Positions 4,312-57,255 of a stretch of DNA of 64,000 bases are shown here, in pieces (positions within the stretch are counted from its first letter, which is position 1; the number at the start of each line of letters is the position of its first letter). A program made the translations under genes and the position numbers. The notes beneath the pieces were generated by a model. That model was given only the letters and a program-made list of their open reading frames with translations, searched no databases and had not been told where the DNA came from. Source of the DNA: a virus. The DNA is taken from positions 1-64,000 of IMG/VR virus record IMGVR_UViG_3300025417_000566. The stretch is one strand, 5' to 3'.

Positions 4312-4313
4312 TG

Positions 4314-23544: not shown

Positions 23545-24006
23545 ATGGCACAATATATTGGATTTAGTACTATCAACGCTTGTTTACCCCAGACAACTAA
23601 TAATGTATCTGGGTTGGCTGCCCGCAGTTTGGACGGGGGTTTAGGATTACAACAACCAATTAATCCGGGTAAAAAATTTAGATTATTAAATTCAGATTTA
23701 GTCGTAAGAGACTTGATTAATGCTCTTAATATACGTCAAGGAGAAAAAGTAGGCCAACCTAATTATGGTACTACAGTTTGGAGTTTCTTGTTTGATCCTA
23801 ATACATTTGATGTTCAAACTCAACTTCAAAATGAAATTAAACGAGTTGCCTCACAGGATCCTAGAATAATTTTAAATGCTGTTAATGCTTTCCCCCAAGA
23901 AAATGGTATATTAGTTGAAATAGAAATGGCTGTTGCCCCCTTCAATAACCCAGCACTATTGAGTATATTTTTTAATCAAACGACTAGTGCGGCCGCAGTA
24001 GTTTAA
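23545..24006 (+). CDS. 25: Baseplate wedge protein gp25-like (GPW/gp25 family)
   Basis: The 153-aa product (T4 gp25: 132 aa) carries the gp25-family core: LVVRDLINALNIRQGEKVGQ, YGTTVWSFLFDP and LQNEIKRVASQDPRI. This small lysozyme-like fold has no enzyme activity in contractile systems and nucleates the sheath at the baseplate. It stands between the spike gene and gp6, as in T4 (5-repeat region-25-6). Confidence 0.92.
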   Translation: MAQYIGFSTINACLPQTTNNVSGLAARSLDGGLGLQQPINPGKKFRLLNSDLVVRDLINALNIRQGEKVGQPNYGTTVWSFLFDPNTFDVQTQLQNEIKRVASQDPRIILNAVNAFPQENGILVEIEMAVAPFNNPALLSIFFNQTTSAAAVV

Positions 24007-27458: not shown

Positions 27459-30400
27459 ATGGCAAATACAAATAGAGTTAGAACACTTAATTTCTTACCA
27501 GAAATTTTTCAGACTACTAGCAACCAACAATTTTTATCTGCTACACTTGACCAATTAGTAAATCCTCCCAACTTACAACGTATTCAAGGTTACATTGGAA
27601 GTAAGTTTGGTTACGGTGTTAACCCAAACGATTACTATGTTACAGAACCTACAAAAACTAGAAGAGAATATCAACTAGATCCAGGCGTTGTAATTAAAAA
27701 GACAAATGAAAATACTGCAAAAGATTTTATTACATACCCAGGTATCCTTGACGCATTAAATCTACAAAACGGTGTTACTAACAATAACAATCGTTTGTTT
27801 AATAGTCAGTTCTACTCATGGGATAGTTTTACCAATCTAGATAAGATCATTAACTTTAATCAATACTATTGGTTACCTTTTGGTCCACCTTCAGTAACAG
27901 TAGCATCACAAACTGTTTATTCTACAGAGCAATATGTTGTAACGTCATTAGACAATGGTTATAATATTCGTATTGCTTCAGCTGAAACAGGTGAAATTAA
28001 TCCAACACTAACATTGTTGCGCGGTGGCACTTACACATTCTTAGTTGATCAAGATACTCAATTTTGGATTCAAGGTCAACCAGGTGTAACTGGCTACAGT
28101 CCTACGCAAACTAACTTATATACACGTAATGTATATGGAGTAGAAAACAACGGTGCAACTCAAGGTTATGTAACATTTACAGTTCCTGCCGCAGACGCAC
28201 AAAACGAATATCAATTTCCTGCTAGTGGTGTAAATCTTGATTTAGTATGTACTACACCATTTAGCCAAATCAACGGACAACTATTGTCAACAATAGGTGC
28301 AATTGATGGTGTCACATCATTGCAAGGTCTACAGATTATGTTTTATAACACAGGAATTCCTAACGAAACTGGGTATGTACAAACATATTATTCTGAAACT
28401 TCATATGACACTAATGATAACACATTAGTTCAACCTCTTACAATTTCAGTTAACCAAACAGCGGCTAATGTCTTTACATTAGCAAGTGGAACAAACGCAT
28501 CATTAAATGTAAATGACACTATTACATTTAACAATCCTACATTCGGTGGAGTAACTGCGGGTAGCGTATATTTTATTAATGGTTTAGTGGGAACAACAGG
28601 CTTCACTATTTCTGCTACATTAGGGGGTTCTATTTTAACATTGACCAACGCAACAGGTTTAATGACTGCTAATACAAATCAAGGTTTGTTAGAAGAGGGT
28701 TATTATACCACTGTTGCAAACAACTTCTATACAGTTGAATATGTTGGTGATCCTGCTAACCCAGTTATTAGATTGATTCCAAGTGGAGTTATTCCTACTA
28801 ATCAAACTATTACGCCAGCATTTGGTGTACAGTATAATAATTTACCCTTCTATCGCAACACAGTGGGTACAATTGCAGAAGTACCTTATATTAGTGCGCC
28901 CCTAAACACATTATACTATCAAGATGGTACAAACGCTGACAGCGTTGGTGTTATTAAATTAATTGAAAGCAATCTTTCAAACACAATAAACGTTACAACT
29001 GACATTTTAGGACAAAAAACATTTACTAGCACAAATGGTGTTGTGTTTACAAATGGATTAAAAGTAAGTTTTGACGGTGACGTTATCCCAACAAGTTATT
29101 TGTCAGGTGAATACTACGTAGAAGGCGTGGGTACTGCTATTGAGTTGATCCCAGTTAACTCATTGATCTGCCCTGAAGGATTTACTGAGGCAGTTTATAA
29201 TCCATATGATTCTACTAATTATGATATTGGTAACTGGGACTTAACAGACTTTGTTCCTGTATTACCTGATTACATTACTATTGCTAGAAATAGTATTAAC
29301 AAAAACGCATGGTCACGTAGTAATCGTTGGTTCCACATTGATGTAATTAATGCAACTGCATCTTACAACAATGATCCTACGATTCTTACAATTTATGCGT
29401 CTGCTACAGCAAAAGCACAACGTCCAATTATTGAGTTTTACCCTAACCTACAATTGTTTAATTCAGGTATTATTGGTAAACAAGCAGTTGACTTTTTTGA
29501 CACAAGAACAACAGATGCATTAACACAAGTTGCAGATCAACAAAACTACTATCCTGATATCCAAGTATATAGTACATATACAGCAACCGTTGCCGGGGTT
29601 ACAAATGCAACATCAACTACAATTACAATTAACGCAAGTGCAGTAACAGGAACACTACAACAGTACCAATATATTACTGATTCTACAAACTTGTTGCCTA
29701 GAAACTCACAAATTCAATCAATTGCATTGAATAATGGAGTATACACATTAAATGTATCATGGCAAAATGCAACTACATTTAATACAACTACTGTAGCAAG
29801 TATTGTTGCTAGCGACACAACTGTAAACAATTATGCATTGTTCTCAGGTGCTAGAGTTATTTTCTCAGCAGACCCAACAGTAAGCAACACAATTTTTGTT
29901 GTCAACTTGTCTACTCTAACAACTGGCTCAACACCAGTTATCACAATGACTCCTGCTGAAGATAGCCCATGCTTAACAAATGAACAAGTTGCTGTGTTGC
30001 GTGGTTACTATCATCAGGGTGAAAGTTATTATTATACTGGCACAAGTTGGGATTTAGCACAAGAAAAAACCAATGTAAATCAAGCACCTTACTTTGATAT
30101 GTTTGATAGCAATGGTGTAAGTTTTGGCGACCCATCAGTTTATCATAGTACAACATTTACAGGTACTACACTATTTCAGTATGGTGTAGGTATAGGCTCA
30201 ATCGATACTGTTTTGGGTTTCCCTATATCGTACAGTTCTATTGATAACCAAGGCGATATTCAGTTTGACGTAACACTTAACTCAGACACATTTAATTATG
30301 TGAACGGCGCCACACCTATAACTGAAAATATTAACACAGGTTACGTTTACAACTACACAGTGGACAGAACATTGTTCAGACAATTGGGTTGGCAAACTGC

Positions 30401-33400
30401 TGTAGCACCTAGTGTACAATATCAATATTTTGAAATTCCATATAGCCCTGCTACAACAACATACACGTGTGATATTGCGGCATTAACTGGAACAGCGGCA
30501 ACTGATGCTGTTTGGCCAGTGGTACAAGTTTATATTGACAACGTATACCAATCTCCAACCTCATATACATACACAGTAGGAACAAATTCTACTACTATTG
30601 TACTTCCACAACAACCTTCAACTGCAACACTAGTTCAAATTCTATTGTTAAGTAATCAGGTAAGTACAACTGGATATTATCAAATTCCTATCAATTTGAG
30701 TAATAATCCATTGAACACAAATATTACTGTTGCTAACGTTGGTGATATTCGCAATCAATATCAAAGTATTTTTTACAATAATCCTAATACAACAGGTCAA
30801 GTATTTGGCCCTAACAACTATAGAGACTTAGGAGATATTGTTCCATATGGTACTGCTATTATTCAAAATAGCGCAAGTCTAGTATTGCCCGGAGCACTAC
30901 TACGTGTACCTGATCACAATTTATTCAATGCGTTATTGTATAACAGCCGTGAATATGTTAACTATAAACAATTAATTGTAAGTACAGTTAGCAACACAAA
31001 CTTTACACAAACATATAACCCTGCGCAAATTTTAGATATTGCACTAGCGCAAATTACTCAATCTAAGAGTCCTAACCAATCATTCTTCTGGTCAGACATG
31101 ATTCCTTCACAAGCGCCTTATAGAAGTAATATCTATACATTTAACAATGCACTAGACACATCAATCTACCCATTGTCACAAGTTTATAATTTTGAAACAG
31201 CAAATTATAATGGTGTATTGGTATATCGCACAACAAAGATTAACGATTATCAAACTGTTACTGAACAGTTAATTAAGGGTCAAGATTATACAGTAAGTAC
31301 AACTGCACCTTCACTTGAAGTTACTATTGAGTTGAATGCAGGAGACACAATTACAATTAATGAATATAATCAAACTTATGGAAGTTATGCTCCAAATACT
31401 CCAACTAAGTTAGGATTATATCCCGCATTTGTTCCTGAAGTTGTCTTAGATAGCGACTACTATACACCTACATATTTTATTAAAGGACACGATGGTTCAT
31501 TTACTAAGTTATACGGTGAGTATATAAACGGTGTATTACAAGACTATCGTGACCAAGCATTATTAGAATTTGAAACACGTGTTTACAATAACTTGAAGTT
31601 AAGTAACACAATTCCAATTCAAGCATATGATTTGATTCCTGGTTATTTCAGACAGGGTACACAGCAATATTCTAATCAAGAATGGTTAGAAATGTACAGT
31701 ACTAATTTCTTAAATTGGATTGGTCAAAATCGTTTAAATTACAAAACACAATACTATAACACAAACGATCCATTTAGTTATAACTATACCAACTCAGGTA
31801 ACAAGTTAGACAGTACTCCAATTCAGCAGGGTTACTGGAGAGGTGTATATCAATATTTCTATGATACAACAACTCCAAATGAAACACCTTGGGAAATGTT
31901 GTACTATCCAAATCAACCAAGTTGGTGGACAGAACGTTATGGTCCTGCCCCATATACAAGTGATAACTTAGTGTTATGGAACGACATTGCAAACGGCGTT
32001 CGTTGGGAAGATGGTGTACCTGTAACAGTTCCTGAACTAGCACGTCCTGGCTTACTAAACATACTACCAGTTGATAGCGCAGGTAACTTAGTAAGTCCTT
32101 TTGTATCAATTGTTGGTAACTATAATCCTAACACATTCCAAAAAGATTGGGTTGTTGGTGATGATGGCCCAACTGAATTAAGTTACAGAAGAAGTAGCAC
32201 ATGGCCGTTTGATTTCATGAGACTTCAAGCATTGATGAAACCTGCTGAATTCTTTAACTTGGGTGTATGGGTTGACAATTACAAATACAATGCAGAGTTT
32301 AATCAGTACCTAGTTAATGATAGAAGTCACTTAGTGCCTAATGAAATTCCTGTATATGGTAGTGGCACAGCCGTAACCAGTTACTTGAACTGGATTGTTG
32401 ACTTTGAAAAACAACAAGGTATCGATGCTACAACAAATCTAACAACGTTATTCAACAACTTAGATGTAAGATTGGTTTACAGATTGGCTGGCTTCAGCGA
32501 TCAAAATCAATTGGCATTCTATGTTGAAAAAGCAAGTCCAAACACAACAAGTTCATCATTGTTGATTCCAAATGAGAGTTATAATATTCTTTTATATGAT
32601 AACCAACCATTTGATAGAATCCCTTATAGTTCTGTTGTTGTACAACAAAATGATGGTTACTACACAGTATTTGGTAACGCACAACAATTTGCATACTTTA
32701 CTGTATTGAACCCAGTTTATGATGGTCAAACTTATGCAATTGACATTCAGTCAGCAAAAGTTAAGGTAGCAAAAAACTATTCAACAAAAGAAACAATTGT
32801 TCCTTATGGTACATCGTTTTACAGTACACAAGAACTTGCACAATTCTTAACTAGTTATGGAGCATGGCTACAAGATAGAGGTATGATATTCCAAGACATT
32901 CAAAATGGTCTTGAAGTAACATGGAATCAAATGGTTGCTGAGTTCTTATACTGGTCACAAACAGGTTGGGGTACAGGCTCAGTAATTACATTGAATCCTG
33001 CGGCAACACTATTGACTATCGATAAAGTTGATTGTGTTGTTCAACCATTAACTATCCAAGATCAAAACTTTGTATTGAATCAAAACTTATATCCAATTCA
33101 ATTGAAGGATATGTGTATTGAACGTAATGATACACAGTTTACATTACACGCATTAAATCAAGGTGATGCATTTAGTTATGCACAATTTGATCTAGGTAAT
33201 TTTGAACACGGCATCGTATTTGACAATACAACACAATTCAATGATACAATTTATAACCTAGTAACAGGTCTACGTCAAATTAGAATTAATGTGCGTGGTG
33301 CAAAAACTGCGGATTGGAACGGTACTGTAAATGCTTGGGGCTTTATCTTGAATCAAGATAACGTACAAGAATGGTCACCTAACTTAAAATATACTAAAGG

Positions 33401-36400
33401 ACAGATCGTTCTTTACAAGAACAAGTATTGGGTAGCACAACGTGTTATCGAACCAACAGCAACATTTAATCAACAGAATTGGAAAGAAACAAATTACAAT
33501 GCTGTACAGATAGGTATGCTGCCTAACCCATCAACACGATCATTTGAAAGTGCGTTATATTATAACACAAATGTTAGTAACTTGTCACAAGATGCCAACT
33601 TACTAAGTTATAGTTTGATTGGTTACAGACCAAGAGATTACTTAGCAACAGCAGATTTGACAGACGTTACACAAATTAACGTTTATCAAAACTTAATTAA
33701 AAACAAAGGAACACGTAATGCAGTAAACGCATTCCAAGGTGTTACTTTACCACAAGGTGGTATTAGTTATAATGTCTATGAAAACTGGGCAATCTTGCAA
33801 GGTGAGTTTGGTGGTGTAGCAAATAACAATTTTGTACAATTTAGAATTAACCAAGCAAATATGACCGGAGATCCATCAATCTTTAGTTTAACTAATGGTG
33901 TGTATACTCCTGGCTCAATGCAAGAAATTCCTATCTATAGTTTATACAACTATAAACACAATATTGATAATCCAAACATCTTGTTAACAACAAATGATGC
34001 AGAACCTAGCACAACAAACATTTATCCAGACGCAGGTTATGTAAACTTTAACGATGTTAAAATGTCAAGTTACTTCTACTCTGGATTACCTAGAGCAACT
34101 GATATCACTGGTCAAATTGTTCCTATTCAGAATTTCTACGTAAGAGATTATGTATGGTTGGCTAATTTCTTGAACACATGGAATGTATATTCATTAAAAC
34201 CAATTGGTCAAGTAATTCAAGTTAGAAACAATTTAAACAAAACAGCAACAATTACATTTGCAGAACCACACGGACTAAGCAAATTACAACCATTAGCAAT
34301 CGTCAACTTTGCAAACAATGTAGACGGATATTATATCGTTACACAAGTTGTAAATTTAAATGAAGTTATTATCAATCTCAATGTAGCAACTGCAAATCAA
34401 AATACATTGACTGGTCAAGGTATTGGTTTAATCTTTGAAACACAAAGAGCTGCAACACCTTCAGAAATTGGATTGTTAGACTTAACTGAAGCAGACTTTA
34501 TTACAAATACAGTTTGGGTTGATGAAAACACAGACGGTAACTGGGCAGTCTATCAAAAGACTATCAATTATCAATACAATCAGCAATTAGAAAAGCCATA
34601 TGCAACTAATTTTGGTACTGCTGTTTCATACTCACCTGAAATGGGATACTTAGTTAGCGATGCACCTCAAGGTAATGTTTATAGATATGTGTACGACCCA
34701 TTATCATCACAATCAACAGGACAACCTGTTTATGACATATCACAAACGTTAACTGGTGGTACAAGTTTTGGTACAACAATTGTTCATCAAAATAACATTT
34801 ATGCTATTAGTGAACCAACAAGTGGTACACCAAAAGTATACATTTACGCATTAAATGATAGCACAGTTTCAACTGCGGCTATTCTCTATCAAACTATTGC
34901 GGCACCCGGTGGTGTAACTAATTGGGGTAGTGCATTGGCAATGTCAGGGGATAACAATTGGTTGTATATTTCTGACATAGCAAATAATAATGTTTACGTA
35001 TATCGCAGAGAACAAGTTCTATTGAACGCTGGTTACTTTGTAACAGGACAAACATATACAATTCAAAGTATTGGTACAACAGACTTTACAGCAATTGGCG
35101 CAGTTGCAAACGATGTAGGTATTACGTTCGTTGCTACAGGTGCAGGTACCGGTACCGGCACAGCGTTGCAAGTAACATATGCGCAATCAACTGTAATCAG
35201 TGGTTCATCAACTGCTGGTTCAGTATCAGGCGATAATTTCAGTGCTTCATTGTCAACTGACTATTATGGTCAAACATTATTTGTTGGCGCACCTGATGTA
35301 AATTACAGTTCAACAATTGAAAATTGGGGTAGTGCATATGCATACCAAAGAACAGTTCAAAACGTTGAAGCACAACAAACTAGTGTTGCTGGACAAATTC
35401 AGTCATTTACATTAGGTTGGACACCAACAGCAGGAGCAACAAGAACAGCAAGTGCAACTAATGGTAGCACAAACTACATTACATGTAATGCAGCCATGAC
35501 TGGCTTTGCAGTAAATCAAGCCGTAGTCTTTAATGGTAGTAACTTTGCTAACTGTGGTATTAAGCCAAACGTTGTTTACTACATTGCTGGTATTTCAGGT
35601 TCAACAATTTCTATCAAAACATCACGTTCATCAACAACGCCTGTGCAATTAACTACTGCTAGTGGCTTGTCATTTGGTGTGTATGTACAAGTTGATCCAT
35701 TATATGTTACAGTTAACGGTACATTAGTACAAGACAACAACTATGGTGTAATTGGTAATCAATTTGTTTACAGTGGTGCATTGCAAGCAGGTGACATTAT
35801 CAACATTAGTGATAATCAATACACATTAGTACAAAACTTCAATTCACAGTTCAATGACAGAACCGGGATACATTATGGTTATGCAATGGACATGAACACA
35901 TTTGGTACTGAAGTATTAGTGGGTTCACCATTTGAAATCAATGACACTACAGGTGAAGAAGGTGCTACTTATAGATATACTAATGTTGGTGCCAAATATG
36001 GTGTTATTATTGGTACATCTGTATGTAATTTGTTGTCATCACAATACTTGTTTATAAATGGATACTTGTTATTCTTGACAGCAGGTGATGCAACATCAAT
36101 TGCTAACCAAATCAATTCAAGCAAAATTACTAACGTACAAGCATCTGTAACAACTGATGGTATGTTAGTGATTCAAGTAATTGATAGCGAAATTGCACAA
36201 CCTAACAATCAACTATCAATCTCTGTTGTTAATGAAGATGTGCTAGATCAATTGGGTCTTGATGTATTTGTTAATACACAAGTTCTTGTGTCACCATATG
36301 CAGTTGGCCCAACAGAATTTGGTACAGCAATTAAATTCAATGAATCTGGAAGTGTAGTAATTTCTGCGCCAGTTGGCACACGTTATGAGTTCACATCATT

Positions 36401-39400
36401 TGACTTTACTGACAACGGTACACCTGATTTAGACACCGTGTTTGATAATAACGCAACACGATTTGTTGACAGTTATCCAAACGCAGGTGCAGTATACATG
36501 TATGATTATCTTGGTAACTACAATGAAAATGTTGCAAACCCTGGACAATTTGTATTTGCTCAATCTGTAAATTCACAAAACACAAGTTATGGATTCAATC
36601 CATTATACGGTGCAAGCCTAGATTTTAACAACAACACAGTTGTTGTTGGTTCACCTGACTTCTTGCCAGGAGTATCAGATGGGCAAGTTGTAATCTATGA
36701 CAACTCAGTTGGTACACAAGACTGGGGCATTTATAGACAAAGCGCACCTATTGTTGATATCAACAGTATCAGCAACTCACAATTGTTTAGTGCTACATCA
36801 AACAACACACTAGTAAATCTAGATTATATCGATCCATTACAAGGTAAGATTCTTGGCTCAGTAAGACAAAATCTAGATTTTGTAACAAATACTGATCCTG
36901 CAAGATACAATAGTGATTTAGCAAGCCAAACAGGTTATGTTTGGGGAGCAAACGAAGTTGGTAAAACATGGTTTAATACAAACAATGTACGCTTTGTTAA
37001 CTATCATCAAAACGATGTAGTGTATAATAGCAAGTACTGGGGTCAGGTATTCCCAGGAAGTGATGTTGCCGTTTACACATGGGTAGCAAGCAATGTGCCT
37101 CCTCAGAATTATCAAGGTCCGGGTACTCCGTTAGACATTACATTATATGCTATTAGCAGTACATTAAACGCAAGTAGTGTTGTTGTACCTATCTATTATT
37201 TCTGGGTGCGTAACACAAACTTGATTTTTAGCGAAACAGGAAAAACTCTAAGCGATACTATTCTTGCGCAATACATTGCTAACCCACGTGGGTCAGGTAT
37301 TAGTTTTATGGCTCCTGTATTACCAAACACATTTGCAGTTTATAACAGTTTAAGTTATTTCAATGGTACTGATACTGTGTTCAATATTGCATATAGTAGC
37401 AATCAAGATTCAGGAAGTGATATCTATCACCAACAATTTGCTCTTATTAAAGAAAATTATGCAGAAGATTTCTTGCCAGGATTCCCGCAGTATGCGTATA
37501 TAAGCAGTGCTTTGAGTGAACCTAATGGTTTATATTTAAGATTTATTAACAGTTTGGCAGGATGTGACGATGCAGGTGGAGTAGTACCTGATCCATACTT
37601 ACCAATTCAAGTTCAATCGGGTGTTCAAGTAAGACCAAGACAAAGTTTCTTCCTTGATAGATTCTTAGCACTTAAAAACTATTTGACATTTGCTAATGAA
37701 GTGTTAGCACAATATCCAATCGTTGAACTAAGAGAAAATTTAGACTTCTTGTACACAGTAGGAGATATTAATCCTGGTACAGGCTTACCATACTACGACA
37801 CAACTAACTATTGGGAATTTGTCAACTGGTGGGCTCCTGGCTACAGCGACAACACACGCTCTGTACTACAAGTTCCATTATACGCTGACTTAGCAACATT
37901 GAATGTAAGTGCAGGTACAATTGTAACTGTTGCACAAAACGGTGCAGGTAAATTTGAAGTTTATATTACTGACGGATTAGGAAACTGGACACGTATTGGT
38001 TTACAACAAGGTACTATTCAGTTTAGTAGCGCATTATGGGATTACTCAAGTGCAGGCTTAGGTTGGGACGGAAACTTCTTTGATACAAACGTATTTGATT
38101 TGTACCCAAGCGAAGAAACACGTTATATTGTTCGTGCATTAAACGAGCAAATTTATACTGCGGACTTGTTGATTTATAGAAATCAAAGTTTGATTTTACT
38201 ATTCCAATATATCCAAAGCGAAACAACCTCATCACAAAACTTCTTACCTTGGTTGAATAAAACATCATTGGTTGACGTAGATCATAAGATTCGTGAATTG
38301 TTACCACTTGAAGTATATCAAGGTGACAATGAAGTATTCTTAGAAGGTTACTTAAATGAAGTTAAACCTTATCACGTAACTATCAAACAATTTAGTTTTA
38401 GTTATACAGGTAATGATGTATTTGAAGGTAACATCACAGACTTTGATTTGCCAGCACAATGGAATAATACTTATCAAGAGTTTATCAGCCCTGAATTAGT
38501 TTATACATTACCAAACAACGAATATGAATATTTGCCAAGCAGTTCAATTTGGCAAACAGAAGCATATAACCAATGGTATCAAAACTATGGCGTTTCATTA
38601 ACTGGTCAAGATAATTACAACATTACAACACTAGTTTCATACTTAACTCCAAGTTCTAAGTATATTATTGTTGATAACGCTAATGGTTTCCCAATTAATG
38701 GTACAATCACTATTGACGGCGAACAAATTGGATATTCATCAGTAGACCGTGCATTAAATCAACTAAGTGGATTAGTACGTGGATACAACAGTACTGTTGT
38801 TACTAACCATATCCCTGGTGCTAAAATTTATATTGACTTACCTGCTGTCTTACTATTGAGCGGTGGTAATGGTTATAGTAATCCTCCAAGAGTAACTGCG
38901 GTAATTGATGAAACATTATACCCTGCTCCAAGAACTCCTGCTGTATTAGAAGCAGTAATGAATTTAGATTCGGTATTGGAAATTAATGTTATTATCCCAG
39001 GTTCAGGATATCCTGTATTACCCACAATTGTTATTGAACCATCATCTACAATTTATTTTGCAAATACACAAGTCAATTCAGTATTGCACACTATTACAGT
39101 TTATGCACCTGATTTAGTAACAGGTTCACAAGTTCAATACTTTAACGATACATCAACAAATAATGGAGTTGGTGAGTTAGCAGACGGACAATGGTACTAT
39201 ATCAATGTCTTAGAAACCACTCCTACTGCGGTAGTTGCACTTTATGTAACTTATTCAGATGCAATCAATGATGCTAACAGAATTCCAATCTTTAATAATG
39301 GAACAGGTAGCGCATTCTCATTGAATCTTGGTGCTAGAGCATCAGCAATTTCTACTGCTTACCCAGTACGTGAAAACAGTATTAGAATGAAGTTCGATAG

Positions 39401-42400
39401 AACTACATACAATTCACAAGTACAAGATTGGCAGTCTAGTGCATACTACGGCGCATTCTTTGCTGGTAGTTATCGCAACAATGAAGACTTCTCAAGTTCA
39501 GATGTAAGTTTAGAAAGTACTACACCTCCTATTCAATATATTACTGCGGCTTCAGGTGGCGGCGTAGTATTTGAAATTAGTGATGTTACAAACGATCAAC
39601 AAGTTGAATGGTCTTCATTTGTAAGATATGTTGGGGCCACAGTAGCATCTAACAATTCTATTAAATTGATTCCACAAGATGGAAACAATGATCCTAACAA
39701 TCCACAGCCAAATGCTTCTGGTACAACTGTTGGTTTCTATGTTGGTATGCCAATTCAATTTAATGGAGTGGGCATTGGTGGACTTGTGGGTTCAACTACA
39801 AGTACCCCAGTAATTTACTATGTACATAGCATTATTGATGAATTATACTTTACAGTATCATTATCAGTAGGTGGTCCTATTGTAACATTAACATACGCAA
39901 CAGTTGGAGCCGCAGGCTTAGAATGTTTAACTGCAAGTGTTACAAACACAGCAGTATTGACTGTAAACTACCCAGGTATTATCACAGTTACAAATACTAC
40001 AGCAGTAACTAATGTATTCACTGCCCCAGTATCAGCAATTGGTACAGGTGGTACTAATGGATTCTATGTGGGTATTCCATTATTCTTCACTGAAGGTTTA
40101 ATTGGTGGTGTTGTATTAAATCAAGTTTACTATGTTTCAACAATTATTGACGAAGAAAACTTTACAATTTCTTCATCACCTACGCCATTAAGCACTACCG
40201 TTCTTTCTACAGCAAGTTCAACTAATATTGTAACTGTTTATACTACAGAAGGTATGAAGGTTAACGATCCATTAATCTTTAACAACATGGTGATCAGTGG
40301 TAGTAGTGTAACTGATTTTGGTAACATTATTTCAGGTGTAACTTATTACATTAAAGAAATTATTAATTCTACAGAAATTACAATTTCTCAATATGTAAAC
40401 AGTACTGTATTCCCATTAACAACCGTGGCTGCAAGTAGTACAACAAGTGCATTGGTAACTGATCAAAGTTCTAGCACACAGTTGACTACTGGTTTAGGCG
40501 CAATGATAATGAATGTCAATTTACCAATTAGCCCAGGACAAATCAATGGACAATTGTTTAACTTGTATGAAACATCTGGACAATATCCTAATATTGGTAC
40601 AGGTGTTATCAGTGAATTAATTGGCAACACAGTTAATGCTACAATTCAAACTGTAAATTATGTTGCATTTAGTAACCAACAACCAACTCAATTTATGTAT
40701 GCTAACATGCCAGTTAGATTTAATACTTCAATTGGTGGATTAAGCACAAACACAACTTACTACATTAAATCACTTGGTGTAATTTCTGTAAACTGTACAA
40801 CTACAAGTTCATCAACCAATCAGATTACATGTAATAGTACATCTACATTGTATGTTGGCATGCCTATCAAATTCAGTGGTGTGTCATTAGGTGGTATTAC
40901 AATTGGACAAACATATTTTGTTAAATCTATTGTAGACAGCACACACTTTACAATTAGTGCAACGTCAGGTGGTTCAACATTAGTGTTGTTCACATCAAAC
41001 GGTGAAATGGTTGGTACTGGCGACCCGTACATGGTTGTTTCTGCAACATTGGGCGGTAGCGCAGTATCATTAACATCAAGTACAGCAAGATCAAGTTTTG
41101 TTCAATATCCAACTGCTAATCCAACATTTGATATTTCTTATGCGGTTGGTGGATATATTGCAATCATTAATTCTGCGGCATCTGGATTTGCAGTTAACAA
41201 CGTAATCACAATTTATGGATCATACGTTGGTGGTACAACACCTACTAATAATGTGACATTGACAGTAAACACAATTGGAACTGACGGACAAATCACTGGC
41301 GTAATTGCATCAGGAACTGTACCGGCAAGTTCATCAAGTTACTATCTAAAAGTCGTATCTCCAAATCAATTGGCAGTTTACAGTAATCCATTGTTGACTG
41401 TTCCTGTAAGTGGACTAGACATACCTTATGTTGGATTCACAGTTGAAACAGTTACAGGTGTTAACTCATCAACCAATGCATTGACAATTGCAGATACTAC
41501 ACAATTCTCTCAATACGATGCGGTTGTGTTTACTGGCAATACAAGTATTGCACAAACTAATATTGTTCCTAACCAAACATATTACATTTATCAAATTCTA
41601 AGCCCAACAACATTTACAATTTCTACTGCACCAGGTGATGGTTCTACTGTAGTTACTATGGTAACTACAATCGCCGTAAACTTCACAATGGCAAAAGCAG
41701 GAAGTTTTGCAGTATTACCTCAACCGTTCTACTTCAATCAAAGTATTGTGAAGTATAACAACAGAATATATCAATGTATTATTTCTAACAATGATAGTGA
41801 ATTTATCTTTGGTAAGTGGCAGTTGTTAGACAGTGATAGTAATTTATTAAACGCTATGGACAGGGTAATTGGTTACTATCAACCAACTGCAAACATGCCA
41901 GGTGTAGACTTGACACAGTTGTTTGAGGGTGTAACTTATCCTAACTCGACATATTATGGTAATCAATTTGCTCCCGCAAATCAATATCCTGTAGATACAA
42001 TTCTACAAGATCAACCATTCTATCCAACAGAAGTAGATATTACTAGCGTAATTTGGAATGGCGCAACATACTTAGCAACAAGTAACTTACCAACATATTC
42101 GGCAGTATTGATTAGCCCAGATGGTATTAACTGGAGTATTGATACACTGGCAAATATTAATGTTGACATTACAGATATTCTTTATGCAGGTGGTTTCTAT
42201 GTAATCACAACTACAAATAGTGCAACACCTATCTATAGAAGCAATGACGGTATCAATTGGACAACAAATGGTTACTATACCCCATATAGCGATCAACCAT
42301 ACGATACTACAGAGTATGATTCAACATCAATCAACGTAGCCCAACTTGCATTGCAAGCAGTAACATATTCAAATGGATATTATATTGCAGTTGGTGACAA

Positions 42401-45400
42401 CATTGTTAGAAGTGCAGACACATATAACTGGGTAGAAGTTCCAATCTTCCCTAACACATTAACAAGTTATGAGTTCTATGCAATTGCAAACGTTACATTG
42501 CCATCATTTACTGGATTAATTGCAGTGGGTAGTGGTCTACGTCCTGACGTAACGTCAGGTGTTACTGAGCAAGTAAGCACTAATGTAATATTCTATAGTA
42601 CAAACAATGGATTAAATTGGACACAAGTTAACTCATTAACACCAAATGGATTCTATGGAATTGCAGGCAACAACTCATTAATTCTTGCAGTTGGTTCAGG
42701 TGGTGTAATCTATTACAGCACTAACGGTGCAAGTTGGTTAGGTCTAAATCAAGTTCAAGTGATTTCTATCAATGCCGCAACTAACGTTATTAACGTAACT
42801 AATAGTGCTGGATTTGTATTAAATCAACCTGTGCGATTCAGTCAAGCGTTTGGTGGTCTAAGCACAAATACAACATACTATATTGTAAGTATTACCGGCG
42901 GAGCAATTAAAGTTTCATTAACACCAAGTGGTTCAGCAATTGTATTGACAAATGTAAACCCAAGTGCAGACCAAACAATGATGTTTGCGTATAATTCTGC
43001 TAACCCAAATCCAGCAACGTTGCGTGATATCATTTATGCAAATGGTATTTGGATTACAGTTGGTGATACTGGTACTATTAAGACATCTACAAATGGATTT
43101 AGTTGGACTACACAATCATCAGGTACTGTACAAAACTTACACTCAGTAACTTATAATAATACAACAAGCACATTTACAGTTGTTGGTGATAATAATACTA
43201 TTTTAGAATCTACAAACAACGGTGTGTCTTGGTCAGATATTTCTGTATTCAATGTTGCTCCTACTGTATACGATGTACAGGGTGCAGAATTCCCATATGG
43301 TTATGGTCCAGAAGAATTAGTTCCAGGTGTTGTAACAGACAGTATGGCTATGACAGTTATTACACGTCCTGGTACATTGTGGCCAGTAGTTGAATATTCA
43401 AATGCAGGTTATAATTCTGTATCATTAGAATTGACACCAACATCAGCAAGCCAAACTGTATACAGTTTTGCAAGTGCATCGCATTATCCTGCACAAGTTC
43501 GTGTGCAAGTACTTGATTCAACTACAATGTTGGGTACAACATTAGATGCAAGTGCATACACAGTTGATTGGATTAATAAGTCAATTACTCTTAACACTCC
43601 GTTGTCATACTTACCAAACACACAAAAATTAAGAATTGATGTATATGAAGTTGGTAACGGTAGTCAATTGGTTAAATCTAATACTGATACTAACCCTATT
43701 AGAAACAACACAGTAACAGGATTTGATGAGATTTACTTAGATTGTAATTACAGCCAAAACATTTACAGTGGTAGCGGTGTGATTCAACAAGGTACATACC
43801 CTATCAACACATTAGCAACTGAAACTTTTGCAGAAACTAACTATATTACATGTGCAAGTATTAGTAATTTCATATTGAACACACCTATTACATTCTTAGG
43901 TAATGTGTTCGGTGGTATTGTTGCTGGTACACAATACTATGTAAAATCAATTAGTACTGCAACAAATCAAATTACAATTTCAGCAACATACAATAGTGTA
44001 ACTGGTCAAGCAGGCCCAACCCTTGCATTGACTACTGCTACAGGTAGTATGGACGTTGCGATTGAAGTAGGTAACGGTCTTGTATGGACAGCACCAATTG
44101 TTTACTTAAACGGTACACAATTGGTAATGGGCGTAACAAACAATGTTATTGCTACAACAGCAGGAACTAATGCAATCACAACAAACTCAACAAGTGGTTT
44201 GATTGTTGGCACTCCTATTATGTTCAGTAGCACAATTTTTGGTGGTGTCATTCAACCATTGACAACATACTATATTAGTAGTATTATTGATATATATGAC
44301 ATTACAATCAGTGCAACTTTAGGCGGACCGACACTAGCATTAACTAACGCTAACGGTGGTGCAAGTTTTGTAACTAATGATTATGCGTTTGGAATTCAAC
44401 CAAATGGCATCCAAGCAAAAATGATCTTTAGTAGCAACACATATAACACAACAAATGATTATATTGTATATTCTGTATTTGGTCAAACTGAACCAGTGCA
44501 GATTGGTTATTCATTACCAACTGTACAAGAATTCATTGCAACAGGTCAAACATCATCTTATAACCTAAATAACTACTTAGGTGGAACAAATGCATACAAC
44601 GCAATTGTTGAAATTGATGGTGTAAGACAAACTATTTCTCAGTACACTATTAGTGAATTTGCTAAAACAATTAACTTTGTATCTAACCTATCAGCAGGTT
44701 CTAAGATAACTGTAACAACGTTTAATGACACACAACAGCAATACCTAACTACTCAGTATGGTATCACAGGTACCCCTGGCTCACAATTTATTGATCTAAC
44801 TGTTGGTTCAACAACTCACACTGTTGTAACATACGATCAAGGTGGCACAGCGGGCTTTGATAGTAATGGTTCTGTAAACGCTGGATCATTTGTTGTTGGA
44901 ACACAATATGAGATCACTACAGTAGGTACAACCAATTGGGTAGCAATTGGTGCAAGTTCTAATAACGTTGGTATTGTCTTTACTGCAACTGGTGTAGGAT
45001 CAGGTACTGGTGTTGCATTAGCAGTTGGCTTGTATGCAGAAAATTATAACTACTTAACATTGTCATCAGGAACAACAGCATCATTACAAGTCAATAACAG
45101 TTTGGTGTTCAGTGATGTTATTGGTGGAATTGTTGCTGGAAAAACATATTATGTTACACAGATTATTAACAGTACACAATTTGTAATTTCTGAATTAGTA
45201 GGAGGAGAACCTTTAACGTTAACAAACGCCACAGGCTCAATGTTGGCTACAGCAAATGGATTAACAGTAGCCCCAATTAGTAACATTTCAAACCAATTAA
45301 CAGCACCTCTTGCAGTTACATTTGCTAGTGCTACAACATCAGGTACTAACGCAATTACAGTAACAAGCACAAATGGATTTGTTGTTGGTAGAACTGCAAT

Positions 45401-46886
45401 ATTCCAAGGCACAGGCTTTGGTGGTATTGTAACTGACGGAACAGTATACTTTGTTGATACCGTAATTGATGATACTAATTTCACAATTATGGATCAATAT
45501 GGTAATCAAATTTCGTTGTCAAACGGAAGTGGCGACATGCAAGTCACAATTGATGGACAACCTGCAATTCGTGTAACTACAAGTATTGATAATTATTTTA
45601 ATGAAAATCAATTGGTCAACATCAATGGTACACAGGGTTCAGTACAACTCAACGGTAACACTTATTATGCAAGAATAATTACTAATACAACCTTTGACTT
45701 ATACACACAACCATATGATCCATCAATTAATGCTGTTAACTACCCAGTAACTACAGCGGCTTCTTGGACAGGTGGCGGATATGCTTGGAGATCAGGCGTG
45801 TTTGTACTGTCAACTACAACAGCAACAGCAACAACTTCAACTAATAACATTATTACTGTAGCAGACACAAGTAATTTGGTACAAGGTACTCCGATATTAT
45901 TCAATGAAATTGGATCAGTGCCCGGTGATGTAATCATGGGTGGACTAGTACAGGGAACAACTTATTATGTTGGAAGTATCTTTAACGGAACTGAATTCAA
46001 TGTAACAAGTTCACTATATGGAAGTACTGTAACGTTGACCAACGACAGTGGTAGTATGAATGTGGTACAATGGGTACAAAGCAATGTAGATCGTCTATGG
46101 GTAACTGTAAACGGCTTACGTGTACCTTCAAGTAACTTAAGTGTAAACCAATACAATGAAGTAGGTATTCTAACAGAGATTGTTCCGGGTGATGAAGTTA
46201 TCATTACTAACATGATTCCACAAGCAACACCTAATGAATTGACATACTTGAATCTAGTAAACACAGTGGGTGAGGCAGTTGTATACAGAGCCAACACACA
46301 AACTAGAACTTGGTTAACTCAACCAATCTATGATTTAAGCACAACGATTTATGTTAACGATGTGACTAGAATCACAACTACAATTACTGAAAATGCAACT
46401 GTACCTGCTGAAGTTGACGGATACTATTATGTTGGATTGAACGCTAACAAGAATAGTATTTCTAGTATCACAGTATTTGACACAACTACAAATAGTTTGA
46501 TTAATTCTAGTGAGTATGAACTTGTTATTGTAGATACTGCTCCTCAGATTAAAATCAATGGAACAGCAGTTTCAGCAGGAAATTCATTAGTTATTACTAT
46601 TTTAGAAGGTAATGTAATCTTAGTTAACGGAGAACAAATCAAGTTTACTACTGTTGATTTTGTTGCAAATTCAATTTCAGGTCTACAACGCGGGGCAAAT
46701 GGAACTGCAAGACAGCCGTTTATTCCAACTTATACTGAAGTATACGGATTATTACCAACTGGCATGTTGTCTAATAATTACTATAATCAGACTTGGAATT
46801 CATACGTTTACAATCAAACTTTGGGCGATCCACTGCAAATTAGTAACACAGTTCCTGCAGAATTCTTAAATACGGATGTTACCTAA
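27459..46886 (+). CDS. Giant 6475-residue baseplate / virion structural protein in the gp7 position
   Basis: A single uninterrupted frame of 19.4 kb encodes about 700 kDa. It directly follows gp6, where T4 has wedge initiator gp7 (1032 aa). The N-terminus (TLNFLPEIFQTTSNQQFLSA, IQGYIGSKFGYG, NFNQYYWLPFGPPS) resembles large structural proteins of marine T4-like phages; a Trp/Tyr-rich block lies near 1360-1520. Further on: FG-GAP-like propeller repeats (about 2380-3090), Asp-box repeats (about 4860-5260), a beta module of 65-80 residues present at least a dozen times, and duplicated GTG-rich and NGEQI modules. The C-terminus (LGDPLQISNTVPAEFLN) looks conserved rather than run-on. The ribosome site AGGA precedes ATG. 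Role: baseplate periphery or receptor contact; gp7 homology is from position only. Confidence 0.8.
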   Translation: MANTNRVRTLNFLPEIFQTTSNQQFLSATLDQLVNPPNLQRIQGYIGSKFGYGVNPNDYYVTEPTKTRREYQLDPGVVIKKTNENTAKDFITYPGILDALNLQNGVTNNNNRLFNSQFYSWDSFTNLDKIINFNQYYWLPFGPPSVTVASQTVYSTEQYVVTSLDNGYNIRIASAETGEINPTLTLLRGGTYTFLVDQDTQFWIQGQPGVTGYSPTQTNLYTRNVYGVENNGATQGYVTFTVPAADAQNEYQFPASGVNLDLVCTTPFSQINGQLLSTIGAIDGVTSLQGLQIMFYNTGIPNETGYVQTYYSETSYDTNDNTLVQPLTISVNQTAANVFTLASGTNASLNVNDTITFNNPTFGGVTAGSVYFINGLVGTTGFTISATLGGSILTLTNATGLMTANTNQGLLEEGYYTTVANNFYTVEYVGDPANPVIRLIPSGVIPTNQTITPAFGVQYNNLPFYRNTVGTIAEVPYISAPLNTLYYQDGTNADSVGVIKLIESNLSNTINVTTDILGQKTFTSTNGVVFTNGLKVSFDGDVIPTSYLSGEYYVEGVGTAIELIPVNSLICPEGFTEAVYNPYDSTNYDIGNWDLTDFVPVLPDYITIARNSINKNAWSRSNRWFHIDVINATASYNNDPTILTIYASATAKAQRPIIEFYPNLQLFNSGIIGKQAVDFFDTRTTDALTQVADQQNYYPDIQVYSTYTATVAGVTNATSTTITINASAVTGTLQQYQYITDSTNLLPRNSQIQSIALNNGVYTLNVSWQNATTFNTTTVASIVASDTTVNNYALFSGARVIFSADPTVSNTIFVVNLSTLTTGSTPVITMTPAEDSPCLTNEQVAVLRGYYHQGESYYYTGTSWDLAQEKTNVNQAPYFDMFDSNGVSFGDPSVYHSTTFTGTTLFQYGVGIGSIDTVLGFPISYSSIDNQGDIQFDVTLNSDTFNYVNGATPITENINTGYVYNYTVDRTLFRQLGWQTAVAPSVQYQYFEIPYSPATTTYTCDIAALTGTAATDAVWPVVQVYIDNVYQSPTSYTYTVGTNSTTIVLPQQPSTATLVQILLLSNQVSTTGYYQIPINLSNNPLNTNITVANVGDIRNQYQSIFYNNPNTTGQVFGPNNYRDLGDIVPYGTAIIQNSASLVLPGALLRVPDHNLFNALLYNSREYVNYKQLIVSTVSNTNFTQTYNPAQILDIALAQITQSKSPNQSFFWSDMIPSQAPYRSNIYTFNNALDTSIYPLSQVYNFETANYNGVLVYRTTKINDYQTVTEQLIKGQDYTVSTTAPSLEVTIELNAGDTITINEYNQTYGSYAPNTPTKLGLYPAFVPEVVLDSDYYTPTYFIKGHDGSFTKLYGEYINGVLQDYRDQALLEFETRVYNNLKLSNTIPIQAYDLIPGYFRQGTQQYSNQEWLEMYSTNFLNWIGQNRLNYKTQYYNTNDPFSYNYTNSGNKLDSTPIQQGYWRGVYQYFYDTTTPNETPWEMLYYPNQPSWWTERYGPAPYTSDNLVLWNDIANGVRWEDGVPVTVPELARPGLLNILPVDSAGNLVSPFVSIVGNYNPNTFQKDWVVGDDGPTELSYRRSSTWPFDFMRLQALMKPAEFFNLGVWVDNYKYNAEFNQYLVNDRSHLVPNEIPVYGSGTAVTSYLNWIVDFEKQQGIDATTNLTTLFNNLDVRLVYRLAGFSDQNQLAFYVEKASPNTTSSSLLIPNESYNILLYDNQPFDRIPYSSVVVQQNDGYYTVFGNAQQFAYFTVLNPVYDGQTYAIDIQSAKVKVAKNYSTKETIVPYGTSFYSTQELAQFLTSYGAWLQDRGMIFQDIQNGLEVTWNQMVAEFLYWSQTGWGTGSVITLNPAATLLTIDKVDCVVQPLTIQDQNFVLNQNLYPIQLKDMCIERNDTQFTLHALNQGDAFSYAQFDLGNFEHGIVFDNTTQFNDTIYNLVTGLRQIRINVRGAKTADWNGTVNAWGFILNQDNVQEWSPNLKYTKGQIVLYKNKYWVAQRVIEPTATFNQQNWKETNYNAVQIGMLPNPSTRSFESALYYNTNVSNLSQDANLLSYSLIGYRPRDYLATADLTDVTQINVYQNLIKNKGTRNAVNAFQGVTLPQGGISYNVYENWAILQGEFGGVANNNFVQFRINQANMTGDPSIFSLTNGVYTPGSMQEIPIYSLYNYKHNIDNPNILLTTNDAEPSTTNIYPDAGYVNFNDVKMSSYFYSGLPRATDITGQIVPIQNFYVRDYVWLANFLNTWNVYSLKPIGQVIQVRNNLNKTATITFAEPHGLSKLQPLAIVNFANNVDGYYIVTQVVNLNEVIINLNVATANQNTLTGQGIGLIFETQRAATPSEIGLLDLTEADFITNTVWVDENTDGNWAVYQKTINYQYNQQLEKPYATNFGTAVSYSPEMGYLVSDAPQGNVYRYVYDPLSSQSTGQPVYDISQTLTGGTSFGTTIVHQNNIYAISEPTSGTPKVYIYALNDSTVSTAAILYQTIAAPGGVTNWGSALAMSGDNNWLYISDIANNNVYVYRREQVLLNAGYFVTGQTYTIQSIGTTDFTAIGAVANDVGITFVATGAGTGTGTALQVTYAQSTVISGSSTAGSVSGDNFSASLSTDYYGQTLFVGAPDVNYSSTIENWGSAYAYQRTVQNVEAQQTSVAGQIQSFTLGWTPTAGATRTASATNGSTNYITCNAAMTGFAVNQAVVFNGSNFANCGIKPNVVYYIAGISGSTISIKTSRSSTTPVQLTTASGLSFGVYVQVDPLYVTVNGTLVQDNNYGVIGNQFVYSGALQAGDIINISDNQYTLVQNFNSQFNDRTGIHYGYAMDMNTFGTEVLVGSPFEINDTTGEEGATYRYTNVGAKYGVIIGTSVCNLLSSQYLFINGYLLFLTAGDATSIANQINSSKITNVQASVTTDGMLVIQVIDSEIAQPNNQLSISVVNEDVLDQLGLDVFVNTQVLVSPYAVGPTEFGTAIKFNESGSVVISAPVGTRYEFTSFDFTDNGTPDLDTVFDNNATRFVDSYPNAGAVYMYDYLGNYNENVANPGQFVFAQSVNSQNTSYGFNPLYGASLDFNNNTVVVGSPDFLPGVSDGQVVIYDNSVGTQDWGIYRQSAPIVDINSISNSQLFSATSNNTLVNLDYIDPLQGKILGSVRQNLDFVTNTDPARYNSDLASQTGYVWGANEVGKTWFNTNNVRFVNYHQNDVVYNSKYWGQVFPGSDVAVYTWVASNVPPQNYQGPGTPLDITLYAISSTLNASSVVVPIYYFWVRNTNLIFSETGKTLSDTILAQYIANPRGSGISFMAPVLPNTFAVYNSLSYFNGTDTVFNIAYSSNQDSGSDIYHQQFALIKENYAEDFLPGFPQYAYISSALSEPNGLYLRFINSLAGCDDAGGVVPDPYLPIQVQSGVQVRPRQSFFLDRFLALKNYLTFANEVLAQYPIVELRENLDFLYTVGDINPGTGLPYYDTTNYWEFVNWWAPGYSDNTRSVLQVPLYADLATLNVSAGTIVTVAQNGAGKFEVYITDGLGNWTRIGLQQGTIQFSSALWDYSSAGLGWDGNFFDTNVFDLYPSEETRYIVRALNEQIYTADLLIYRNQSLILLFQYIQSETTSSQNFLPWLNKTSLVDVDHKIRELLPLEVYQGDNEVFLEGYLNEVKPYHVTIKQFSFSYTGNDVFEGNITDFDLPAQWNNTYQEFISPELVYTLPNNEYEYLPSSSIWQTEAYNQWYQNYGVSLTGQDNYNITTLVSYLTPSSKYIIVDNANGFPINGTITIDGEQIGYSSVDRALNQLSGLVRGYNSTVVTNHIPGAKIYIDLPAVLLLSGGNGYSNPPRVTAVIDETLYPAPRTPAVLEAVMNLDSVLEINVIIPGSGYPVLPTIVIEPSSTIYFANTQVNSVLHTITVYAPDLVTGSQVQYFNDTSTNNGVGELADGQWYYINVLETTPTAVVALYVTYSDAINDANRIPIFNNGTGSAFSLNLGARASAISTAYPVRENSIRMKFDRTTYNSQVQDWQSSAYYGAFFAGSYRNNEDFSSSDVSLESTTPPIQYITAASGGGVVFEISDVTNDQQVEWSSFVRYVGATVASNNSIKLIPQDGNNDPNNPQPNASGTTVGFYVGMPIQFNGVGIGGLVGSTTSTPVIYYVHSIIDELYFTVSLSVGGPIVTLTYATVGAAGLECLTASVTNTAVLTVNYPGIITVTNTTAVTNVFTAPVSAIGTGGTNGFYVGIPLFFTEGLIGGVVLNQVYYVSTIIDEENFTISSSPTPLSTTVLSTASSTNIVTVYTTEGMKVNDPLIFNNMVISGSSVTDFGNIISGVTYYIKEIINSTEITISQYVNSTVFPLTTVAASSTTSALVTDQSSSTQLTTGLGAMIMNVNLPISPGQINGQLFNLYETSGQYPNIGTGVISELIGNTVNATIQTVNYVAFSNQQPTQFMYANMPVRFNTSIGGLSTNTTYYIKSLGVISVNCTTTSSSTNQITCNSTSTLYVGMPIKFSGVSLGGITIGQTYFVKSIVDSTHFTISATSGGSTLVLFTSNGEMVGTGDPYMVVSATLGGSAVSLTSSTARSSFVQYPTANPTFDISYAVGGYIAIINSAASGFAVNNVITIYGSYVGGTTPTNNVTLTVNTIGTDGQITGVIASGTVPASSSSYYLKVVSPNQLAVYSNPLLTVPVSGLDIPYVGFTVETVTGVNSSTNALTIADTTQFSQYDAVVFTGNTSIAQTNIVPNQTYYIYQILSPTTFTISTAPGDGSTVVTMVTTIAVNFTMAKAGSFAVLPQPFYFNQSIVKYNNRIYQCIISNNDSEFIFGKWQLLDSDSNLLNAMDRVIGYYQPTANMPGVDLTQLFEGVTYPNSTYYGNQFAPANQYPVDTILQDQPFYPTEVDITSVIWNGATYLATSNLPTYSAVLISPDGINWSIDTLANINVDITDILYAGGFYVITTTNSATPIYRSNDGINWTTNGYYTPYSDQPYDTTEYDSTSINVAQLALQAVTYSNGYYIAVGDNIVRSADTYNWVEVPIFPNTLTSYEFYAIANVTLPSFTGLIAVGSGLRPDVTSGVTEQVSTNVIFYSTNNGLNWTQVNSLTPNGFYGIAGNNSLILAVGSGGVIYYSTNGASWLGLNQVQVISINAATNVINVTNSAGFVLNQPVRFSQAFGGLSTNTTYYIVSITGGAIKVSLTPSGSAIVLTNVNPSADQTMMFAYNSANPNPATLRDIIYANGIWITVGDTGTIKTSTNGFSWTTQSSGTVQNLHSVTYNNTTSTFTVVGDNNTILESTNNGVSWSDISVFNVAPTVYDVQGAEFPYGYGPEELVPGVVTDSMAMTVITRPGTLWPVVEYSNAGYNSVSLELTPTSASQTVYSFASASHYPAQVRVQVLDSTTMLGTTLDASAYTVDWINKSITLNTPLSYLPNTQKLRIDVYEVGNGSQLVKSNTDTNPIRNNTVTGFDEIYLDCNYSQNIYSGSGVIQQGTYPINTLATETFAETNYITCASISNFILNTPITFLGNVFGGIVAGTQYYVKSISTATNQITISATYNSVTGQAGPTLALTTATGSMDVAIEVGNGLVWTAPIVYLNGTQLVMGVTNNVIATTAGTNAITTNSTSGLIVGTPIMFSSTIFGGVIQPLTTYYISSIIDIYDITISATLGGPTLALTNANGGASFVTNDYAFGIQPNGIQAKMIFSSNTYNTTNDYIVYSVFGQTEPVQIGYSLPTVQEFIATGQTSSYNLNNYLGGTNAYNAIVEIDGVRQTISQYTISEFAKTINFVSNLSAGSKITVTTFNDTQQQYLTTQYGITGTPGSQFIDLTVGSTTHTVVTYDQGGTAGFDSNGSVNAGSFVVGTQYEITTVGTTNWVAIGASSNNVGIVFTATGVGSGTGVALAVGLYAENYNYLTLSSGTTASLQVNNSLVFSDVIGGIVAGKTYYVTQIINSTQFVISELVGGEPLTLTNATGSMLATANGLTVAPISNISNQLTAPLAVTFASATTSGTNAITVTSTNGFVVGRTAIFQGTGFGGIVTDGTVYFVDTVIDDTNFTIMDQYGNQISLSNGSGDMQVTIDGQPAIRVTTSIDNYFNENQLVNINGTQGSVQLNGNTYYARIITNTTFDLYTQPYDPSINAVNYPVTTAASWTGGGYAWRSGVFVLSTTTATATTSTNNIITVADTSNLVQGTPILFNEIGSVPGDVIMGGLVQGTTYYVGSIFNGTEFNVTSSLYGSTVTLTNDSGSMNVVQWVQSNVDRLWVTVNGLRVPSSNLSVNQYNEVGILTEIVPGDEVIITNMIPQATPNELTYLNLVNTVGEAVVYRANTQTRTWLTQPIYDLSTTIYVNDVTRITTTITENATVPAEVDGYYYVGLNANKNSISSITVFDTTTNSLINSSEYELVIVDTAPQIKINGTAVSAGNSLVITILEGNVILVNGEQIKFTTVDFVANSISGLQRGANGTARQPFIPTYTEVYGLLPTGMLSNNYYNQTWNSYVYNQTLGDPLQISNTVPAEFLNTDVT
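34600..36730 (+). repeat. FG-GAP/integrin-like propeller repeats within the giant gene
   Basis: Repeated units carry FGTAVSYSPEMGYLVSDAP, WGSALAMSGDNNWLYISD, YGQTLFVGAPDVN, YGYAMDMNTFGTEVLVGSPF, FGTAIKFNESGSVVISAP and YGASLDFNNNTVVVGSPDF. Each ends in a V(G/S)AP or VGSP turn followed by a strand such as VYRY, VYVYR or VYMYDY. This is the pattern of seven-bladed FG-GAP beta-propellers, which often bind ligands or receptors. At least six blades are seen (residues about 2380-3090), interrupted by one GTG-rich module and one of the common beta modules. Confidence 0.7.
39650..46070 (+). repeat. Cluster of diverged 65-80-residue beta modules within the giant gene
   Basis: Copies share the pattern VGxPIxFxGxxFGGIVxGxxYY followed by VxxIxDxxxFxISxTxGG and LTLTNATGxM. 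Approximate nt positions: 39650-39920, 39995-40210, 40210-40440, 40640-41070 (two), 41460-41690, 42750-42990, 43815-44060, 44150-44370, 45045-45260, 45318-45550 and 45810-46070. Outlying copies lie at 28455-28660 and 35440-35690. DNA identity between copies is low, so they are old duplications. They alternate with Asp-box and other domains. Confidence 0.75.
42040..43240 (+). repeat. Asp-box (sialidase-type) repeats within the giant gene
   Basis: Units of the type SPDGINWSID, SNDGINWTTNG, STNNGLNWTQV, STNGASWLGL, STNGFSWTTQS and STNNGVSWSDIS follow strands such as ILYAGGFYVITT, VTYSNGYYIAVGD and IIYANGIWITVGD. SxDGxxW is the Asp-box turn found in sialidases and other six- or seven-bladed propellers. 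No sialidase catalytic arginine triad can be assigned, so a binding role is more likely than catalysis. Confidence 0.75.
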
Positions 46887-46888
46887 AT

Positions 46889-46896: not shown

Positions 46897-46901
46897 AAGA
46901 A

Positions 46902-47057
46902 ATGAACAATATTAAATCAAAAAGTCAAGGAAATCAGGGTAAAAAACAACCTCCTACCAAACCTAACGAGCATGGTGGGTTCTACTTTTCCTCTAGTGTA
47001 AAGATTTTTGATCCAAATAGTAAACAAGTTTTGGTACAGAAAAGAGGGGATGCTTAA
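46902..47057 (+). CDS. Small structural-gene-cluster protein (51 or 56 aa)
   Basis: The frame runs ATG 46887 or 46902 to TAA 47055-47057 and overlaps the next ATG by 1 nt (TAATG). I prefer 46902 because a late box ends 5 nt before it, but 46887 is possible. The first half is Lys/Asn/Gln/Pro-rich. The second half, GFYFSSSVKIFDPNSKQVLV, resembles the N-terminus of the next protein (GFLKIYDPNSGEIFVDKK), suggesting a duplicated small beta element. Function unknown; tight linkage to the next gene suggests a shared structural role. Confidence 0.7.
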   Translation: MNNIKSKSQGNQGKKQPPTKPNEHGGFYFSSSVKIFDPNSKQVLVQKRGDA

Positions 47058-56994: not shown

Positions 56995-56996
56995 AC

Positions 56997-57254: not shown

Positions 57255-57255
57255 G

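Follow-up and report, generated by a model that had tools for sequence, protein, structure and literature searches.

The window analysed here comprises 64,000 nucleotides (positions 1 to 64,000 of the IMG/VR virus record IMGVR_UViG_3300025417_000566) and belongs to a virus contig of 79 kb, which also encodes a T4-like portal, a head protease, a late sigma factor and an SbcD-like gene. It contains a giant gene of 19.4 kb (19,428 nt; Table 1), which begins with an ATG 1 nt past the stop of a gp6-like baseplate wedge gene and runs through 6,475 codons with zero internal stops, the unbroken frame that the first-pass annotation of this DNA had described. The encoded protein has a calculated mass of 705 kDa and a pI of 4.2; its composition is acidic and rich in Ser, Thr and Asn. 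Genes for a gp5-like hub and tail lysozyme and a gp25-like wedge protein lie further upstream. On the downstream side, a Lys/Asn-rich 56-aa ORF (46887-47057) separates the giant gene from a 206-aa gene, whose start codon it overlaps. A homologue of this 206-aa gene was found downstream in 29 of the 30 testable loci.

Two other parts of the window are also of note. The minus-strand gene at 4314-8291 encodes a 1,325-aa product that contains an endolysin-type domain close to the C-terminus. It also gave weak matches to tape measures and tail-associated lysins, and judging from these sequence matches the product is likely a tape measure with a built-in lysin. In addition, five genes in a row at positions 53094-59483 encode radical-SAM and/or SPASM domains, and an NAD-dependent epimerase (60828-61811) comes after them. 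Such a run is unusual in a phage structural region and possibly serves in sugar or peptide modification.

Table 1. Genes at the giant-gene locus and features of the giant protein (window coordinates; residues numbered along the giant protein).
Feature	Residues	Position	Strand	Remarks
gp5-like hub and tail lysozyme gene		19502..23524	+	PHROG 13211
gp25-like wedge gene		23545..24006	+	PHROG 261 and 43
gp6-like baseplate wedge gene		24056..27457	+	1,133 aa; directly upstream; PHROG 10646 E 6e-252, PHROG 219 E 2e-23
Giant structural gene, PHROG 10938 family		27459..46886	+	6,475 aa; ORF, profile match, homologues
Conserved N-terminus	1-150	27459..27908	+	motif LPxxFQTxxNxxFLxATLDQL; common to all compact relatives (alignment, tile map)
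G-module	324-407	28428..28679	+	
Conserved block	500-700	28956..29558	+	common to most compact relatives
Conserved family core	780-2260	29796..34238	+	conservation peak ~1310-1550
Small domain (predicted)	1967-2012	33357..33494	+	like Milano phage baseplate and phage 7-7-1 tail fibre domains; VIA Z 7.5, 0.9 Å over 45 residues
Small beta-barrel (predicted)	2242-2329	34182..34445	+	like E1 FCCH domain and phage endosialidase domains; AF2 model, VIA Z 8.7-10.7
Beta-rich insert	2330-3070	34446..36668	+	present in both giant and mid-size clades; undetected in compact relatives
G-module	2655-2738	35421..35672	+	missing as unit in L075 and L083
Second conserved core block	3070-3740	36666..38678	+	lowest dN/dS (0.059)
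End-type domain, first copy	3720-3795	38616..38843	+	DGExIxY...GLxRGxN; duplicate at 6355-6430, hhalign E 3e-15
G-module	4066-4151	39654..39911	+	
G-module	4175-4254	39981..40220	+	
G-module	4243-4330	40185..40448	+	
Partial G-module	4387-4439	40617..40775	+	
G-module	4438-4520	40770..41018	+	
G-module	4658-4737	41430..41669	+	region 4660-4747 missing as unit in 4 homologues
Seven-bladed beta-propeller insert (predicted)	4855-5263	42021..43247	+	missing, same boundaries, in L075, L085, L093
G-module, within propeller	5092-5174	42732..42980	+	missing (65-85 residues) in 9 propeller-retaining homologues
G-module	5448-5535	43800..44063	+	
G-module	5556-5640	44124..44378	+	missing in L093
G-module	5855-5933	45021..45257	+	with preceding module (5773-5935) missing in 13 homologues
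G-module	5951-6031	45309..45551	+	missing in L071
G-module	6116-6203	45804..46067	+	missing in 3 homologues
Conserved C-terminus	6215-6475	46101..46883	+	holds second end-type domain copy (6355-6430)
206-aa gene, PHROG 11259		47057..47677	+	downstream of giant gene

Several lines of evidence established that the size of the gene is genuine. The five other frames over the same interval contain 391-683 stops each, so base composition does not account for the giant open frame. A second contig (IMGVR_UViG_3300025357_000023, L094) carries the same 19,428 nt with zero differences, and the longest exact direct repeat within the gene is 16 bp, which is too short to mislead an assembler. IMG/VR yielded another 21 complete and distinct homologues, 5,906-6,629 aa in length, and alignments among the giants extended over the whole length, both ends included, with identities of 51 to 59% (84% in the closest case), a few variable patches excepted. 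Measured against the closest distinct homologue, which is 84% identical to the giant protein, dN/dS was 0.059-0.173 in all nine segments of the gene, including the C-terminal extension. Because of the identical copy, the full-length homologues and these dN/dS values, the size is real and selected over the whole length, and the giant ORF is one functional gene under purifying selection along its full extent. The repeat modules inside the gene might be taken as a sign of an assembly or run-on artefact, but in view of the second contig, the other full-length homologues, the lack of any exact repeat over 16 bp and the selection acting on the entire gene, the probability of an artefact is practically nil; assembly error was ruled out by the identical copy together with the repeat ceiling. 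The earlier statements that the frame is no run-on and that both its start and its end are conserved were thus borne out, and for the assembly error across repeats, named at that stage as a potential refutation, we found the opposite. At another locus (L035, 9989-29006), the giant gene is present in two overlapping frames of 2,914 and at least 3,446 codons, which may reflect a frameshift, a sequencing error or a real split.

The two halves of the giant protein matched the PHROG 10938 profile with E-values of 5.5e-198 and 1.2e-42, and BLAST showed blocks shared with ten isolate or compact relatives; on these sequence matches, the giant protein is a member of the PHROG 10938 family of virion structural proteins. 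Members encoded by cultured jumbo myophages (RaK2, PA5oct, CBB, Atu_ph07 and Phosso) span 3,326-4,555 aa, with RaK2 gp465 at 3,326 aa, PA5oct gp355 at 3,857 aa, Atu_ph07 gp180 at 4,449 aa and Phosso 294 at 4,555 aa, and contigs bearing family members reach 344 kb. The record of PA5oct gp355 carries an ESI-MS/MS note, and 21 peptides of CBB_236, amounting to 7.72% coverage, were recovered from CBB virions (PMC5259590). Searches that used the PA5oct and L105 proteins as queries retrieved no or almost no further contigs.

Tiled profiles showed that residues 1-150, 500-700, 780-2260 and 3070-3740 are held in common with the compact isolates, with weaker sharing at ~4700-4870, 5200-5360 and 6300-6460 with some compact or mid-size forms. 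An AlphaFold (AF2) model of core residues 1290-2330 (mean pLDDT 77, pTM 0.61) contains the two small domains listed in Table 1; comparison with a viral structure library returned family members first and then short domain matches. Residues 1971-1992 also gave a weak match to carbohydrate-binding module 5/12, which fell below the cut-off (Pfam E 0.0043). Searches of the whole protein against Pfam and NCBIfam gave weak sub-threshold matches only, and a sequence search of solved structures with the protein and three core profiles gave nothing meaningful.

The remaining length of the giant protein is rich in inserted domains. An ~80-aa repeat (G-module) is present in about 14 copies, with copy-to-copy E-values of 7e-12 to 3e-23; the compact isolates showed no detectable copy. 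Comparisons of the repeat with 4hiz and 2m5s were weak (E 0.16-0.17), and those with the barrel domain at 2242-2329 gave E 0.005-0.2, where one control reached 0.015; these are hints only of an FCCH-like or endosialidase-type barrel. A second module type was found in duplicate (window 35016-35183 and 44871-45044, residues ~2520-2575 and 5805-5862; hhalign E 3.7e-25). Residues 4855-5263 are predicted to adopt a seven-bladed beta-propeller fold of the Ycf48/BNR-like type: the AF2 model aligned with virginiamycin B lyase (VIA Z 29.8, 2.2 Å over 266 residues), Foldseek also matched Ycf48, and weak Ycf48/BNR matches were found in the sequence itself. Consistent with this prediction, the span of the structural alignment (4855-5253) agrees with that of an indel (4855-5263). 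The propeller blades are 42.9-45.3% identical to Caulobacter phage tail fibres.

An indel map among the giants revealed that residues 2659-2747, 4660-4747, 5094-5183, 5773-5935, 5945-6027 and 6119-6202 are each missing whole in at least one homologue. The boundaries of these module-sized indels coincide, and both ends of the protein are conserved. Since one repeat lies within the propeller and is missing in nine homologues that keep the propeller, the insertions are nested, and because the repeats and the propeller are gained or lost as whole units while the ends are kept, the extra length is modular. The new point of this analysis is that the giant size stems from nested, exchangeable domain insertions on an otherwise conserved structural protein.

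In a quick tree of the core region (residues ~1300-2260), in which some isolates sit on long branches, the giants, L058 included, formed one supported, derived clade, followed outward by L199 (4,595 aa), a clade of 4.6-5.0 kaa and L105 (3,432 aa). The isolates, of 3.3-4.6 kaa, were separate from the giant lineage. Within the giant clade, L058 encodes only 4,927 aa; its N- and C-terminal ends are both retained and it is followed by the same neighbouring gene, which ruled out a truncated gene. The simplest reading is stepwise growth from a compact form with later losses, for example in L058.

We additionally considered the role of the protein in the virion. The gene order tail lysozyme, gp25, gp6, giant gene supports a baseplate role as far as gene position can indicate one, and the same order is found in CBB and PBECO4. 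A gp6-like gene preceded the family member in every environmental locus whose upstream sequence was long enough to use (169/169; some of these loci share a contig), and the family member directly follows the gp6-like gene in RaK2, PA5oct, Atu_ph07, Phosso, Vibrio 2.275, XbC2, PBECO4, Munch and CBB. Our preferred explanation, which we regard as reasonably probable, is that the giant is a virion structural protein, peripheral in the baseplate wedge, with a core that serves as an anchor and inserted modules that act as surface-binding arms. Three observations count against a baseplate assignment: the PHROG category of the family is 'head and packaging', the core model gave no convincing match to solved baseplate proteins beyond one 45-residue domain, and in SCTP-2 the family member lies ~90 kb away from the gp6-like gene. 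In SCTP-2 (L004, 609-9899), the place of the gp6-like gene just upstream of the family member is taken by a 3,096-aa gene of unknown function. For the first-pass designation as a baseplate protein, membership of a virion structural family, the baseplate cluster, the gp6 adjacency and the relatives in PA5oct and CBB virions all speak in favour, and the baseplate location itself is probable.

In the preferred explanation, the giant protein would most likely be made together with the gp25- and gp6-like proteins as a peripheral part of the wedge. It would be fixed to the wedge by the core common to the 3.3-4.6 kaa relatives (residues 1-150, 500-700, 780-2260 and 3070-3740, plus the C-terminal end), with whole domains, namely the ~14 ~80-aa repeats, a second beta-rich region and the seven-bladed beta-propeller, inserted between the conserved stretches. 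These modules would be expected to form rigid arms that project from the baseplate and bind surfaces; the baseplate location, the anchoring to the wedge and the binding role of the modules are all steps that we infer. Six copies, a number that assumes one in each wedge, would add about 4.2 MDa, in line with the figure of about 4 MDa first proposed. A more far-reaching version, which we think somewhat unlikely, is that a wedge protein has turned into an all-in-one receptor-binding platform, whose built-in adhesin cassettes (propeller and repeats) are swapped as units. If true, host recognition would evolve by cassette exchange in a baseplate protein and not through separate tail fibres.

Much of the giant protein consists of fibre-type modules, its composition is acidic and Ser/Thr/Asn-rich, and some of its domains resemble phage endosialidase and tail-fibre domains, all of which would fit a tail-attached fibre or adhesin that is no wedge component and uses its conserved part only as an attachment site. 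However, the conserved core of ~2.5 kaa, the gp6 adjacency at all testable loci and the existence of a compact 3.3-kaa form in many phages indicate a structural role, and make a mainly fibre-like or adhesin-like protein an unlikely alternative. Family members are also encoded by the hairy phage CBB (PMC5259590) and by Atu_ph07, which has been termed hairy (PMC7824862), so the protein might instead form the hair-like tail whiskers of such phages. We judge this highly improbable, given that the giant gene is grouped with baseplate genes and that the family is also found in MIJ3, for which the microscopy, in the part of the account available to us, describes a spiky baseplate and long kinked fibres and no whiskers (PMC6892783).

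Compatible with a peripheral wedge protein is the proposal that the giant is truly orthologous to the wedge initiator gp7 of T4, descended from a common ancestor and inflated like the giant gp7 of cyanophages. The gene occupies the same position, right after gp6, and greatly enlarged gp7-type proteins are known from the cyanophages DSL-LC03 (4,107 aa) and S-SSM7 (3,007 and 3,001 aa), in which the genes adjoin gp6, with a 5,172-aa homologue in S-SCSM2R; these cyanophage giants are mostly annotated as gp7 baseplate wedge initiators. In S-SSM7 (L235, 16824-35918), two gp7-annotated genes of ~3,000 aa flank a 340-aa structural gene. The DSL-LC03 protein also contains a propeller segment similar to that of the giant, with blades of 29% identity. 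Using hhalign with single sequences and profiles, we found no significant match of the family to T4 or cyanophage gp7: the best match, a non-significant point in favour of orthology that pairs the conserved KGT motif of the family (residues 2083-2085) with the KGT-type region connecting T4 and cyanophage gp7, reached E 0.025, whereas the T4-cyanophage control gave E 4.5e-7. In addition, no chain of gp7, which forms a heterotrimer with two gp6 copies, was among the best structural matches listed by Foldseek and VIA for the model of core residues 1290-2330, which is weak evidence. True gp7 orthology is possible but doubtful. The claim that the protein sits where T4 has gp7, whose length of 1,032 aa was given correctly, stands for its position after gp6; the link is positional only. 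T4 gp7 resembles the giant in following gp6, but it is six times smaller and shares no detectable sequence homology with it. Core homology between the cyanophage giants and the protein described here was likewise not detectable, and by analogy their enlargement is a parallel case.

Taken together, our results indicate that a widespread environmental jumbo-type lineage makes a protein of ~0.7 MDa, compared with roughly 0.35-0.5 MDa in its closest cultured relatives. For each module there are closely related natural variants that carry it and others that lack it, and these provide a ready-made series for studying how contractile-tail baseplates gain size and binding domains, and allow one to ask whether the cultured 3.3-4.6 kaa forms represent the structural minimum. 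Compared with known systems, the PHROG 10938 proteins of cultured phages (PA5oct gp355, RaK2 gp465, CBB_236, Atu_ph07 gp180 and Phosso 294) are homologous to the giant in the N-terminus and the core blocks and share its place after a gp6-like gene, but they are shorter, with no ~80-aa repeat detected and no propeller match; the PA5oct and CBB members were detected in virions. Proteins of huge phages, some of them tentatively annotated as structural, are very large too and reach 7,694 aa (Al-Shayeb 2020, PMC7162821, the only paper found when the literature was searched for compilations of the largest phage proteins). The statement that the protein ranks among the largest of phages is fair at 6,475 aa, but since a longer one has been reported, the claim of exceptional size has to be softened: the giant is no size record, but a striking new variant in a known family.
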